A stretch of 41,716 bases of DNA from positions 1 through 41,716 of the forward strand of contig QKGH01000221.1 in NCBI GenBank assembly GCA_003250495.1. The letters run 5' to 3'. Below, piece by piece: positions 19,372 through 23,826 of the stretch. Each line of letters opens with the position of its first letter. Positions within the stretch are counted from its first letter, which is position 1. Under the pieces are notes generated by a model. The model was not told the origin of the DNA, did not search any database, and saw only the letters and a list, made by a program, of their open reading frames with translations. The DNA comes from Marinobacterium sp. Its GTDB lineage: Bacteria; Pseudomonadota; Gammaproteobacteria; Pseudomonadales; Balneatricaceae. A program made the position numbers and the translations under genes.

Positions 19372-20436
19372 GTGACCGAATTCCTCTTTCAATACGGGCT
19401 GTTTCTGGCCAAAACCCTGACCTTTATTATCGCGGTGCTGGCGGTCGTCGGCCTGACCGGCGCGTTGGTTGCGCGGCGGCGCGAAGCGCGCGAAGGGCAT
19501 ATCGAGGTCAAGCATCTGAATGATCATCTGGAGCAGATGCAGCACGAGATCGAAGACGCGGTCCTCGACGAGGAGACCGTCAAGCATCTGATCAAAGAGG
19601 AGAAGAAGCAGGACAAGCGCGAGGCCAAGGCGCGCAAGCAGGCGCTGAAGCGTGGCGAGACGCCGGCGCAGGAGCGGCGCCGGGTCTACGTGCTCGACTT
19701 CGACGGCGACATGCACGCCTCCCAGGTGGACTGGCTGCGCGAGGAGATCAGTGCCGTGCTGATGCTGGCCACGGATGAGGATGAGGTGGTGCTGCGGCTG
19801 GAGAGCCCCGGCGGCCTGGTCCACAGCTACGGGCTGGCGGCGTCCCAGCTCGAGCGCTTCCGCAGCCGCAAGATCCCGCTGACGATCTGCGTGGACCGGG
19901 TGGCGGCCAGCGGCGGCTATATGATGGCCTGCATCGGTAACAAGATCCTGGCGGCACCGTTCGCGTTGATCGGTTCGATCGGCGTGGTCGCACAGCTGCC
20001 CAACTTCCATCGGCTGCTGAAAAAGCACGACGTGGATTACGAGATCTACACCGCCGGTGAGTACAAGCGCACGCTGACGATGTTCGGCGAGAATACCGAG
20101 AAGGGACGGGAAAAGTTCATCGAAGAGCTGGAAGATACCCATGTGCTGTTCAAGGAGTTCGTCAGCGAGTATCGCCCGCAGCTGGATCTGGAGCAGGTGG
20201 CTACCGGGGAGGTCTGGTTCGGCAGCCGGGCGCTGCAGGAGCGCCTGGTCGATGGTATCAGGACCAGCGACGACTACCTGTTCGACGCCTGCCAGGACGC
20301 CGATGTCTATCAGGTTCGCTACGAATTGAAGAAGGGGCTGCAGGAACGCCTGAGCCAGTTGTCGGTCAGTATTGCCGACGGGGTCGTCAGCCGGGTGTTC
20401 TCCAAGCTCCAGCAGAGCCGGTTCTGGTCCCGTTGA
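19372..20436 (+). CDS. sohB: Inner-membrane serine protease SohB (S49 family)
   Basis: SohB is a signal-peptide-peptidase-like protease of the inner membrane; its substrates are poorly known. The protein has 354 residues (E. coli: 349). Residues about 7-32 form a membrane anchor, followed by a charged coiled region (about 40-100), then the S49 domain. The catalytic Ser is residue 180 in RVAASGGYMMAC and the general-base Lys is residue 232 in AGEYKRTLTMFG. LESPGGLVHSYG is also conserved. The start is GTG at 19372 with AGGAG (19361-19365) six bases upstream. It heads a run of co-directional genes through cydC. Confidence 0.94.
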   Translation: MTEFLFQYGLFLAKTLTFIIAVLAVVGLTGALVARRREAREGHIEVKHLNDHLEQMQHEIEDAVLDEETVKHLIKEEKKQDKREAKARKQALKRGETPAQERRRVYVLDFDGDMHASQVDWLREEISAVLMLATDEDEVVLRLESPGGLVHSYGLAASQLERFRSRKIPLTICVDRVAASGGYMMACIGNKILAAPFALIGSIGVVAQLPNFHRLLKKHDVDYEIYTAGEYKRTLTMFGENTEKGREKFIEELEDTHVLFKEFVSEYRPQLDLEQVATGEVWFGSRALQERLVDGIRTSDDYLFDACQDADVYQVRYELKKGLQERLSQLSVSIADGVVSRVFSKLQQSRFWSR

Positions 20437-20467: not shown

Positions 20468-21136
20468 GTGAAACAGCCGATGCAGGACGCCGATACGGCG
20501 ACCCGGATTATTCTTGCTGCGGAGGCGCTATTCGCCAGCCATGGTTTCGCGCAGACGACGCTGCGTCAGATTACCGCCAAGGCCGACGTGAATCTGGCCG
20601 CGGTCAATTATCACTACGGCTCCAAGCACGGACTGATCGAGGCGGTGGCGTGCCGTTTCGTCGATCCGCTGTGTCGCACGCTCGATCAGATGCTGGCGGA
20701 GCGCCTGGCGGCGGATGCCGCGGCGCCCCGGGTGGAGGAGCTGCTCGAGTTGCTGGTACGGACCCTGCTGCAGGTGCAGGATCGTAATGCCAGCGCGCTG
20801 GCCCTGTTCATGCGGCTGCTGGACCTGGCCTACATGCCGGGGCAGGAGGAGCTGCGGCAGTTCCTGAGTGCGAGTTATGCGCCCCGCCTGGCCAGCTTCC
20901 TGCAGTTGCTGCGCAAGGATTGCGCGCCGATGCAGGACAACGAGTTCTTCTGGCGGCTGCATTTCCTGCTGGGGTCGCTGGTGTTTACCCTGTCCAACTA
21001 CGAAACCCTGAACCAGCTCGAACGCGAGGCGGGTCACGAGCAGCCGGATATCGAACGTATCCTGCACCGGATGATCCCCGTCATCAGCGCCGGCTTCCAG
21101 GCCCGCGCCGAGTCCACCCTGATGTGCCGGGTGTGA
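20468..21136 (+). CDS. psrA: TetR-family regulator resembling PsrA (fatty-acid responsive)
   Basis: A 222-residue TetR/AcrR regulator. The N-terminal HTH region includes LFASHGFAQTTLRQITAKAD and VNLAAVNYHYGSKHGLIEAV. The C-terminal half (ELLELLVRTLLQVQ, LFMRLLDLAY, EFFWRLHFLLGSLVFTLSNYETL) closely resembles Pseudomonas PsrA, a repressor of beta-oxidation genes released by long-chain fatty acids. In P. aeruginosa psrA also neighbours nagZ, which supports the name. The start is GTG at 20468 with AGGA (20454-20457) upstream; ATG at 20480 is an alternative. No PsrA-type operator (GAAAC/GTTTC dyad) is seen nearby, so its targets are probably elsewhere. The next gene begins 3 bases after its stop. 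Confidence 0.75.
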   Translation: MKQPMQDADTATRIILAAEALFASHGFAQTTLRQITAKADVNLAAVNYHYGSKHGLIEAVACRFVDPLCRTLDQMLAERLAADAAAPRVEELLELLVRTLLQVQDRNASALALFMRLLDLAYMPGQEELRQFLSASYAPRLASFLQLLRKDCAPMQDNEFFWRLHFLLGSLVFTLSNYETLNQLEREAGHEQPDIERILHRMIPVISAGFQARAESTLMCRV

Positions 21137-21139
21137 GTC

Positions 21140-21649
21140 GTGGCGCCGTTACCGAATCCTGCCGAGGTTACGCTGTCTATCTCCCTGCAGCGGCAGCAGC
21201 TGCAGCTGCGTGAACGCAACGGGACTGAGGTGTACCGCTGCTACCCGGTCTCCAGTGCCCTGAACGGACCCGGCGAGCAGAGCGGCAGCGGCTGTACGCC
21301 GCGCGGGGCCCACTATATCCGTGCCCGGATCGGCGCCGGGCTGCCCTCGAATGCGGTGCTGGTGGGGCGGCGTCCGAGCGGCGAGATCTATTCGCCGCAA
21401 CTGGCGGCCGCGCATCCGGCGCGCGACTGGATACTGACGCGTATCCTCTGGCTCTGCGGCCTGGAGCCGGGCCGTAACCGCGGCGGAACGGTGGATAGCC
21501 AGCGCCGCTATATCTACATTCACGGCACGCCGGACAGCGAACCCATGGGTATCCCGCGTTCGCACGGCTGTATCCGGATGCGCAACGAGGACCTGATCGA
21601 GCTGTTCGAGCTGGTTCGGGTCGGAACCCCTGTACTGATTGAAGAGTAA
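21140..21649 (+). CDS. YkuD-fold L,D-transpeptidase-family protein without signal peptide; likely cytoplasmic L,D-carboxypeptidase
   Basis: A 169-residue protein that is essentially one YkuD catalytic domain. The active-site signature is intact: IHGT with His128, then SHGCIRMRN with Ser141, His142, Cys144 (nucleophile) and Arg146. YkuD enzymes normally act in the periplasm, but here the N-terminus (MAPLPNPAEVTLSISLQRQQ) has no signal peptide, membrane helix or lipobox. The start is GTG at 21140, three bases after the psrA stop; nagZ begins 6 bases after its stop. A known signal-less YkuD protein, ElsL of Acinetobacter, trims recycled muropeptides as a cytoplasmic L,D-carboxypeptidase. By analogy, and from the nagZ neighbour, I infer the same role. 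Confidence 0.85.
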   Translation: MAPLPNPAEVTLSISLQRQQLQLRERNGTEVYRCYPVSSALNGPGEQSGSGCTPRGAHYIRARIGAGLPSNAVLVGRRPSGEIYSPQLAAAHPARDWILTRILWLCGLEPGRNRGGTVDSQRRYIYIHGTPDSEPMGIPRSHGCIRMRNEDLIELFELVRVGTPVLIEE

Positions 21650-21655
21650 ACGAGC

Positions 21656-22666
21656 ATGACCACCGGAGCATTGATGCTGGATATCGCCGGCCTGACCCTC
21701 TCGGCCGAAGAGGCGGCGGTGCTGGGCGAACCCGAAGTCGGCGGCTTGATCCTGTTCAGCCGCAACTACGAATCCCCGGAGCAGTTGCGGGCGCTGATGG
21801 CGCAGATTCGCGCCGTGCGTCCCGACCTGTTGGTCGCGGTCGACCAGGAGGGCGGTCGGGTGCAGCGGATGCGCACCGGTTTTACCCGGTTGCCGCCGAT
21901 GGCGGTGCTGGGGCGGCGCTGGCAGCAGCATCCCGAGGCGGCGTTGGCGGCCTCCCGCGAGCTCGGCTGGCTGATGGCCAGCGAACTGCGCGCTTTCGAT
22001 ATCGATATCAGCTTTGCCCCGGTGCTGGACCTGGACTGGGGCCGCAGCGGCGTGATCGGCAATCGTGCCTTCGCCGCCGAGGCACAGGCCGTGAGCCAGC
22101 TCGCGGCGGCGTTCATGGCCGGGATGCACGAGGCCGGCATGGCGGCCACCGGCAAGCACTTCCCGGGGCATGGCTGGGTCGAGGCCGATTCGCACCTGGA
22201 TATCCCGGTCGATGAGCGGGCGCTGGAGCAGGTTGCGGCGGCGGATCTGCAACCCTTTGCGCAGCTGATCGCGCAGGGGCTGGACGCGATCATGCCGGCC
22301 CATGTGATCTACAGTGCCATCGATGCGGCCCCGGCCGGCTTCTCCGACTACTGGCTGCGACAGCAGCTGCGGGGGCGGCTCGGTTTCGACGGCGTCATCT
22401 TCAGCGACGATTTGACCATGGAGGGCGCCAGCGTGGCCGGCACTTTCCCGCAGCGTTGCGACCGGGCGCTGGCGGCCGGTTGCGACATGGTGCTGGTGTG
22501 CAATCGGCCCGCGGCGGCGCGCGAGGTGCTCGCACATCTGCGGCGGGCCGACTATCCGGCATCGCCGCGGCTGGGGCGGATGCGCGCGCGCGCGGCCGAT
22601 ATCAGTCCCGAGCGGCTGGCGGCGGCACGGACACTGGCCGGGCGGCTGTGTGAGGAGGCGGCTTGA
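21656..22666 (+). CDS. nagZ: Beta-N-acetylhexosaminidase NagZ (GH3)
   Basis: NagZ removes GlcNAc from GlcNAc-anhydroMurNAc-peptides in the cytoplasm, a central step of peptidoglycan recycling; its products act as AmpR inducers where ampC systems exist. The protein has 336 residues with GH3 motifs: VAVDQEGGRVQRM (62-72), KHFPGHG at 167-173 (the substrate-binding and general acid-base loop), and IFSDDLTMEGA with the nucleophile Asp251. There is no signal peptide. The ATG at 21656 follows the YkuD gene by 6 bases, and its TGA overlaps the next ATG by one base. Confidence 0.97.
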   Translation: MTTGALMLDIAGLTLSAEEAAVLGEPEVGGLILFSRNYESPEQLRALMAQIRAVRPDLLVAVDQEGGRVQRMRTGFTRLPPMAVLGRRWQQHPEAALAASRELGWLMASELRAFDIDISFAPVLDLDWGRSGVIGNRAFAAEAQAVSQLAAAFMAGMHEAGMAATGKHFPGHGWVEADSHLDIPVDERALEQVAAADLQPFAQLIAQGLDAIMPAHVIYSAIDAAPAGFSDYWLRQQLRGRLGFDGVIFSDDLTMEGASVAGTFPQRCDRALAAGCDMVLVCNRPAAAREVLAHLRRADYPASPRLGRMRARAADISPERLAAARTLAGRLCEEAA

Positions 22667-23826
22667 TGGATAGCCAGTCGCTGTTCACCTGGTTGCAGCC
22701 GCTGTTCGACTGGCTGCCCTGGCTGGCCGATTACCGCTGGCAGCTGGCGATGGTTGCCGTGCTGCTGGTCACGGCGCTGGTGGCGCTGATCTTCAACCGC
22801 GTGCTGCGCGCGCTCATCCGCTCGCTGGAGCGCACCGACCCGGTGTGGGACGACCTGTTGCTCGATGCGCTGAGCCGGCCCGCGGTGGTGCTGATCTGGG
22901 TCCTGGGTCTGACCTTCGCGTTGCAGATCGGTGCGCCCTATATCCGTGAGCTCAGCCTCGGCGTACCGGGCGCGGTGCGTAAATTCGCGCTGATCCTGCT
23001 GCTGGCCTGGACCCTGCTGCGCTTTGTCGCCCGCTTCGAGCGGGTGGTACTGCTGCAGCGCGAGTCGATCGATCGGACCACGGCCAGCGCCATCAGCAAG
23101 TTGCTGCGGCTGGTGATCTTCGTATTGACCGGGCTGACGCTGCTGCAGAGCCTCGGTTACAGCATCTCCGGCATTCTCGCCTTCGGCGGTGTCGGCGGTA
23201 TCGCCGTCGGTTTCGCCGCCAAGGATCTGCTGGCCAACTTCTTCGGCGGCCTGATGATCTACCTGGACCGGCCGTTCAAGGTCGGCGACTGGATCCGCTC
23301 GCCGGATAAGAATATCGAGGGGGTGGTGGAGCATATCGGCTGGCGCCTGACCATCATCCGTACCTTCGACCATCGCCCGCTGTATGTGCCCAACTCCACC
23401 TTCGCCAGCATCGCGGTGGAGAACCCGTCGCGGATGACGCACCGCCGGATCTTCGAATATGTCGGCGTGCGCTATGACGATGCGGCGGCGTTGCCGCGGA
23501 TCGTGGCCGAGATCCGCCGGATGCTGGTGACGCACGACGAGATCGACGAGCGCAAGGCGCTGTTCGTCAACCTGAACCGGTTCGGCCCCTCGTCGCTCGA
23601 TATCATGATCTACACCTCCACCCATACCACCGACTGGGGGCGCTACCTGGAGGTGCGCGAGGATGTGCTGATGCGCATCATGGCGATCATCGACGCGGCC
23701 GGCGCGGAGATCGCGTTCCCGACCACGACGGTCCACCTACAGCCGGGCGCCTTGCCCCTGGTCGGCAGCGAGGGGATGGCAGAGAGTACAGTGGCCACGC
23801 CGGCGCAGCCGGTTCCGGTTGCCTGA
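22666..23826 (+). CDS. MscS-family mechanosensitive channel, YnaI type
   Basis: A 386-residue inner-membrane channel that should open on membrane tension and release solutes on osmotic downshock. About five hydrophobic segments precede the pore helix, ILAFGGVGGIAVGFAAKDLLANF, followed by FFGGLMIYLDRPFKVGDWI and the cytoplasmic beta and alpha/beta domains. RSPDKNIEGVVEHIGWR and RPLYVPNSTF closely match E. coli YnaI rather than MscS itself. The C-terminal 30 residues are low-complexity. The ATG at 22666 shares one base with the nagZ stop, with GAGGAGG seven bases upstream; it ends 35 bases before cydD. Confidence 0.93.
   Translation: MDSQSLFTWLQPLFDWLPWLADYRWQLAMVAVLLVTALVALIFNRVLRALIRSLERTDPVWDDLLLDALSRPAVVLIWVLGLTFALQIGAPYIRELSLGVPGAVRKFALILLLAWTLLRFVARFERVVLLQRESIDRTTASAISKLLRLVIFVLTGLTLLQSLGYSISGILAFGGVGGIAVGFAAKDLLANFFGGLMIYLDRPFKVGDWIRSPDKNIEGVVEHIGWRLTIIRTFDHRPLYVPNSTFASIAVENPSRMTHRRIFEYVGVRYDDAAALPRIVAEIRRMLVTHDEIDERKALFVNLNRFGPSSLDIMIYTSTHTTDWGRYLEVREDVLMRIMAIIDAAGAEIAFPTTTVHLQPGALPLVGSEGMAESTVATPAQPVPVA

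Follow-up and report, generated by a model that had tools for sequence, protein, structure and literature searches.

ElsL (alias LdtK) of Acinetobacter baumannii is a leaderless protein with a single YkuD domain, about 160–170 residues long, and a catalytic cysteine. Dai et al. 2021 (PMC8649774), who named the ElsL class, reported that ElsL cleaves the disaccharide tetrapeptide but not the pentapeptide, and collected 788 predicted cytoplasmic orthologues, 624 of them from Gammaproteobacteria and 101 from Betaproteobacteria. Simpson et al. 2021 (PMC8630537) located ElsL in the cytoplasm, described orthologues, all predicted to be cytoplasmic, in four of ten gammaproteobacterial orders, and noted that many ElsL-bearing organisms possess neither LdcA nor LdcV. 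LdcA (peptidase family S66) and LdcV (a VanY/LAS metallopeptidase) are assigned the same proposed step as the protein described here, conversion of the tetrapeptide to the tripeptide ahead of Mpl, although their folds and mechanisms are unrelated to it. Csd6 of Helicobacter and Pgp2 of Campylobacter share with it the YkuD fold and, as described, L,D-carboxypeptidase function; they differ in being much longer proteins that trim the wall itself to set helical shape. The gene of interest here lies in a 41,716-nucleotide stretch of Marinobacterium sp. DNA (contig QKGH01000221.1), which we refer to in its entirety as the window. As ElsL, its spread and its replacement of LdcA are already in print (Dai et al. 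2021; Simpson et al. 2021), the window gene is a further, largely expected case.

The elsL-type gene (21140..21649, forward strand), recognized from its ORF, Pfam and NCBIfam matches, alignment and a structure model, runs from a GTG start at 21140 to a stop codon ending at 21649 and encodes 169 residues. YkuD is the sole Pfam domain of the product (residues 14–167, E = 1.9e-21), the same search finding no peptidoglycan-binding, Peptidase_S66 or VanY domain. The codons of the catalytic His128 (21521..21523, forward strand) and of Cys144 in the SHGC motif (21569..21571, forward strand) were read directly, and neither residue varies among 25 aligned homologues or in a second alignment of 63 rows, which bears out the intact active site proposed in the first-pass annotation. 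The tight packing that it had described also holds: three bases (21137–21139) separate the gene from the stop codon of a psrA-like TetR regulator (20468..21136, forward strand; TetR_N and TetR_C_30 domains, with 179 bits against the NCBIfam PsrA model, under its cut-off of 300), and six bases (21650–21655) separate its end from the ATG of nagZ (21656..22666, forward strand), identified by Pfam and by NF003740 (477 bits, cut-off 207).

The psrA stop codon, TGA at 21134–21136, lies in the elsL frame and is separated from the GTG start by the single codon GTC, so that a signal peptide could be encoded upstream in frame only if the stop were read through; a start upstream of 21140 was considered and ruled out on the same ground. 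ElsL-type proteins fall into two groups, A and B (see below), and a signal-like N-terminus was found by our own heuristic in none of 107 group A homologues, the window protein included. The absence of an export signal, likewise claimed at first pass, is thereby upheld. Besides Cys144 the product contains three cysteines (residues 34, 52 and 107), and spare cysteines, which are also common in group A (mean 2.74, n = 107), fit a reducing cytoplasm. The protein resembles Acinetobacter ElsL in being a leaderless, single-domain YkuD protein with a catalytic cysteine; it falls within the 105–200 residues that Dai et al. 2021 (PMC8649774) give for their ElsL class and, as in that class, combines a YkuD domain and catalytic cysteine with the lack of a signal peptide or transmembrane helix, as judged from the in-frame stop and our heuristic, and of a peptidoglycan-binding domain. 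As a separate observation, psrA and elsL together form one frame over 20468–21649 of the window, split by TGA GTC only, and readthrough would yield a fused protein.

The best NCBIfam model for the window protein is that of ElsL, the cell-wall-recycling L,D-carboxypeptidase (NF040925, E = 5.1e-59, 198.7 bits), followed by three transpeptidase models with less than 30 bits each. Dai et al. 2021 required a BLASTp match to A. baumannii ElsL at E < 1e-4; the comparison here is with the ElsL profile. Unlike A. baumannii ElsL, the window protein stays below the curated cut-off of this naming model (270 bits, an "exception"-kind model). Five other group A proteins likewise scored below it, at 165–203 bits, a Moraxellaceae protein reaching 181.6, and the threshold was apparently set with Acinetobacter itself in mind; for this reason the window gene is filed under the wider ElsL class and not under NF040925. 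A quick tree was computed from 106 rows and leaves 47 of its 103 inner branches open. In it, the ElsL-type rows separated from four periplasmic L,D-transpeptidases (Ldts) with support 100, on few outgroup rows, and the five rows nearest the window protein belong to its own genus. Of the named group A rows one in three entered the tree, all rows used being at least 120 residues long, and two intended outgroup loci, L026 and L039, were left out. Grouping with ElsL and not with the periplasmic Ldts, the placement on which the first-pass annotation depended, was thus recovered.

An AlphaFold2 model of the protein built from 63 sequences showed a YkuD fold (pLDDT 94.2, pTM 0.89), for which the best solved match was Bacillus subtilis YkuD (Z 15.8, 113 residues, rmsd 2.2). 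By sequence, no close relative was found among solved structures (best E = 4.8e-6). Csd6 and Pgp2 each aligned over 131 residues (Z 13.9 and 13.0, rmsd 2.9), against at most 123 residues for the listed Ldts; since the rmsd is larger than for the best Ldts, the likeness is a hint only, and a lid common to Csd6, Pgp2 and the window protein, which the longer alignments had suggested, was dropped. A further structure, that of the carboxypeptidase Bd1075 (7o21), aligned over 127 residues. Most of the solved structures closest to the model in fold are L,D-transpeptidases and the domain is YkuD, as would be expected of a periplasmic L,D-transpeptidase that forms 3-3 cross-links or anchors proteins and is exported by an unrecognised route. 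We regard such an enzyme as very improbable here, given a leader that is absent and impossible in frame, the spare cysteines, the separation from the four periplasmic Ldts in the tree and the presence of another YkuD gene in the genome, one that does carry a peptidoglycan-binding domain. The latter was the only other YkuD gene found (L039 50–1678, contig C77; Scaffold, PG_binding_1 and YkuD domains), so that, as reported for Acinetobacter, the genome pairs a leaderless YkuD protein with an Ldt-like one. A Peptidase_M15_2 (DUF882) gene (L039 1813–2409) follows this second YkuD gene.

The position between psrA and nagZ was compared across 25 loci with a full-length match, drawn from the same genome and its relatives and counting nagZ within 300 nt. 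At these loci nagZ follows elsL in 23 and psrA precedes it in 21. In a sample of named loci, which are close ones (79 distinct loci among the 80 top-ranking of 588 confirmed relatives), nagZ comes next in 36 of the 76 whose sequence extends far enough, and psrA lies upstream in 27 of 75. Under the same distance limits neither gene adjoins the three divergent loci that the class sample described below adds to group A. The linkage of elsL to nagZ is therefore conserved, not universal. Further out, sohB (19372..20436, forward strand; NF008745, 508.5 bits, cut-off 259) is a conserved upstream neighbour in many relatives, and a putative MscS-type channel membrane protein (22666..23826, forward strand; labelled by inspection, its ORF listed from a TTG at 22663) overlaps the nagZ stop and has a similar counterpart downstream at many relatives' loci. 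We found no report of a linkage between elsL and nagZ in the open-access texts searched, and "nagZ" does not occur in the main text of Dai et al. 2021. The conserved gene order ties the ElsL-type gene to nagZ and supports the proposed role independently of experiment.

The first-pass annotation had further supposed that the genome may lack LdcA. A search for S66 gave no match in the Marinobacterium assembly, which is 87.5% complete in 490 contigs, or in any of seven congeners (90–100% complete), in agreement with that supposition. VanY gave no match in the same assembly and none over the cut-off in the seven congeners, one of which (G005) had a weak match (2.0e-4). AmpG was present over the cut-off (contig C422), and the genome is thus like that of Acinetobacter in having AmpG and NagZ together with no detected LdcA. 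Mpl was over the cut-off in all seven congeners; in the 87.5% complete Marinobacterium assembly it was not found over the cut-off, the matches there being weaker Mur-ligase matches alone. A draft in which even mpl was not found might conceal an LdcA in an assembly gap, and the window gene would then be redundant or decaying. We consider this exceedingly improbable: S66 and above-cut-off VanY were found in none of the seven congeners, each of which carries elsL (68–76% identity), and the window gene retains an intact active site.

The searches, AmpG included, covered 38 relatives. Strong ElsL matches were present in 25 of the 38 genomes (the Marinobacterium genome included), with weak matches in G032 and G033 (E = 1.7e-5 and 7.7e-5). 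Nine genomes have Mpl without a strong ElsL match; S66 or VanY below 1e-20 is present in eight of these, the exception being G035, whose completeness is 81%. Four genomes (G008, G015, G023 and G029) lack AmpG, ElsL, S66 and Mpl over the cut-off all jointly, G029 having a moderate VanY match (7.6e-12). Among the 38, ElsL and S66 occur together in G031, ElsL accompanies a moderate VanY match in G025 (3.1e-13) and G030 (9.5e-14), and weak VanY matches reach the cut-off in G013 and G031. In four ElsL-less relatives (G027:C13, G032:C6, G033:C2 and G036:C43) a VanY-domain gene lies about 3–9 kb from mpl on the same contig; these genes possibly encode LdcV-type enzymes.

The comparison was extended to a sample of 229 genomes of the class, with cut-offs of E 1e-15 for ElsL-type proteins, 1e-10 for S66, 1e-10 for VanY and 1e-100 for Mpl, and with at most 16 ElsL candidates scored in genomes that had more. 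ElsL-type proteins were found in 175 genomes, S66 in 23, VanY in 27 and Mpl in 198. Among Mpl-positive genomes, S66 or VanY (<1e-20) occurred in 12 of 159 with an ElsL-type protein versus 29 of 39 without one (Fisher P = 4.6e-17, kinship ignored); with one genome per family the counts were 8 of 105 versus 21 of 30 (P = 1.6e-11, kinship above the family level ignored). At least one of the three enzymes was present in 188 of 198 Mpl-positive genomes versus 18 of the 31 others, our Marinobacterium genome among them (P = 1.9e-7, kinship ignored), and in 126 of 135 versus 15 of 24 with one genome per family (P = 1.9e-4, kinship above the family level ignored). ElsL-type genes occur together with AmpG and Mpl, and they replace LdcA- and LdcV-type enzymes. 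Ten Mpl-positive genomes (G050, G053, G083, G085, G101, G110, G116, G130, G181 and G226) have no ElsL-type protein, S66 or strong VanY; since some of them are 97–100% complete, a further enzyme class is possible.

On this evidence our preferred reading, to which we give a probability of about 0.9, is that the window gene encodes a cytoplasmic ElsL-type L,D-carboxypeptidase, an ElsL orthologue that stands in for LdcA. The first-pass suggestion of a cytoplasmic L,D-carboxypeptidase is supported, at the level of sequence, by the missing leader, the grouping with ElsL and the lack of an S66 match. From the published work on ElsL we infer the reaction, substrate and location of the window protein. 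The enzyme would remain in the cytoplasm, where its Cys144/His128 site would cleave off the terminal D-alanine of murein tetrapeptides, whether free or sugar-linked, that are imported by AmpG and stripped with the help of NagZ; the acyl group would be taken by water and not by an amine, and the tripeptide would pass through Mpl into precursor synthesis again. The elsL product would in this way do the job of LdcA in a lineage without it. That the protein and NagZ may share the processing of recycled muropeptides, as first proposed, is consistent with the presence of AmpG and NagZ and with Mpl in all seven congeners. The claim that they act "in turn" is too loose, because trimming needs no fixed order after NagZ.

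In YkuD active sites, either water or an amine can accept the acyl group. A cytoplasmic YkuD enzyme could accordingly catalyse another reaction, exchanging D-amino acids on precursors or cleaving imported 3-3 linked peptides. We judge this improbable for the window protein, since ElsL-type genes rarely coexist with S66 or VanY carboxypeptidases, as would be expected if all act at one step, and ElsL itself is a carboxypeptidase (Dai et al. 2021, PMC8649774).

The ElsL matches of the class sample form two groups, and a profile made from the weaker group also finds 175 genomes. There is usually one ElsL-type match per genome, with two in G084, G211 and G252 and, by the first profile, also in G137. 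Assignment by the better score (best E-values) gave 127 group A and 48 group B genomes, G084 having both, and 48 distinct group B proteins were recovered independently in the signal screen. The motif is mostly IHGT.EE..IG in group B versus IHGTPD.EPMG in group A. The set used for signals and cysteines consisted of distinct domain sequences from all 25 relatives' loci, 79 of the 80 named loci, the three divergent group A loci and 48 group B proteins. By our heuristic, signal-like N-termini were present in 19 of the 48 group B proteins versus none of the 107 group A proteins, and some of the group B proteins called leaderless (e.g. L137, L157 and L162) may hide missed signals. The 19 proteins (L125, L126, L127, L130, L131, L132, L135, L136, L140, L151, L153, L155, L159, L161, L163, L164, L167, L177 and L181) all lack a spare cysteine in the domain, which fits real export; the mean is 1.69 in group B without a signal (n = 29; P = 1.6e-6 for the difference from those with a signal), beside 2.74 in group A.

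The surroundings of group B differ as well. Of the 47 group B loci that extend far enough, 29 have a purF gene within 700 nt upstream (9 of 18 with a signal and 20 of 29 without), so members of both kinds occupy this position, whereas none of 103 group A loci does. TIGR01134 confirmed three of these purF genes, and another of the upstream genes is similar to cvpA (NF008100, score under the cut-off). Neither nagZ nor psrA adjoins any of 47 group B loci; one survey of the group took loci of at least 4 kb. On the quick tree, group A is one clade (support 97) inside a group B grade, most of the placing branches being supported in the eighties, and the signal state changes at least 12 times. All 19 genomes with exported group B members have Mpl, and 17 have neither an S66 match nor strong VanY; among the 19, S66 occurs in G084 alone, which also holds a group A copy, and strong VanY in G038 alone.

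These observations tentatively suggest, in our estimate at slightly under even odds, that the ElsL family extends beyond the cytoplasmic class so far described and that the exported group B proteins would trim the tetrapeptide in the periplasm before import, the step having moved between compartments several times within a pathway that was otherwise retained. The main rival account is that the exported proteins became transpeptidases or trim the wall itself. The orthologue set of Dai et al. 2021 (PMC8649774), as described there, left out proteins predicted to carry a signal peptide, and an exported branch would thus have been set aside. The branch to which the window gene belongs is the cytoplasmic one, often linked to nagZ.

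For Marinobacterium, the elsL-type gene would close the recycling route on paper in a lineage without LdcA. Across the class, the finding that three unrelated enzyme families rarely share an Mpl-positive genome suggests that the trimming step is needed but replaceable, so that its enzyme would be predictable from the genome. The compartment in which trimming takes place decides which fragments enter the cell, and through NagZ and AmpR the entering fragments can bear on β-lactamase control.
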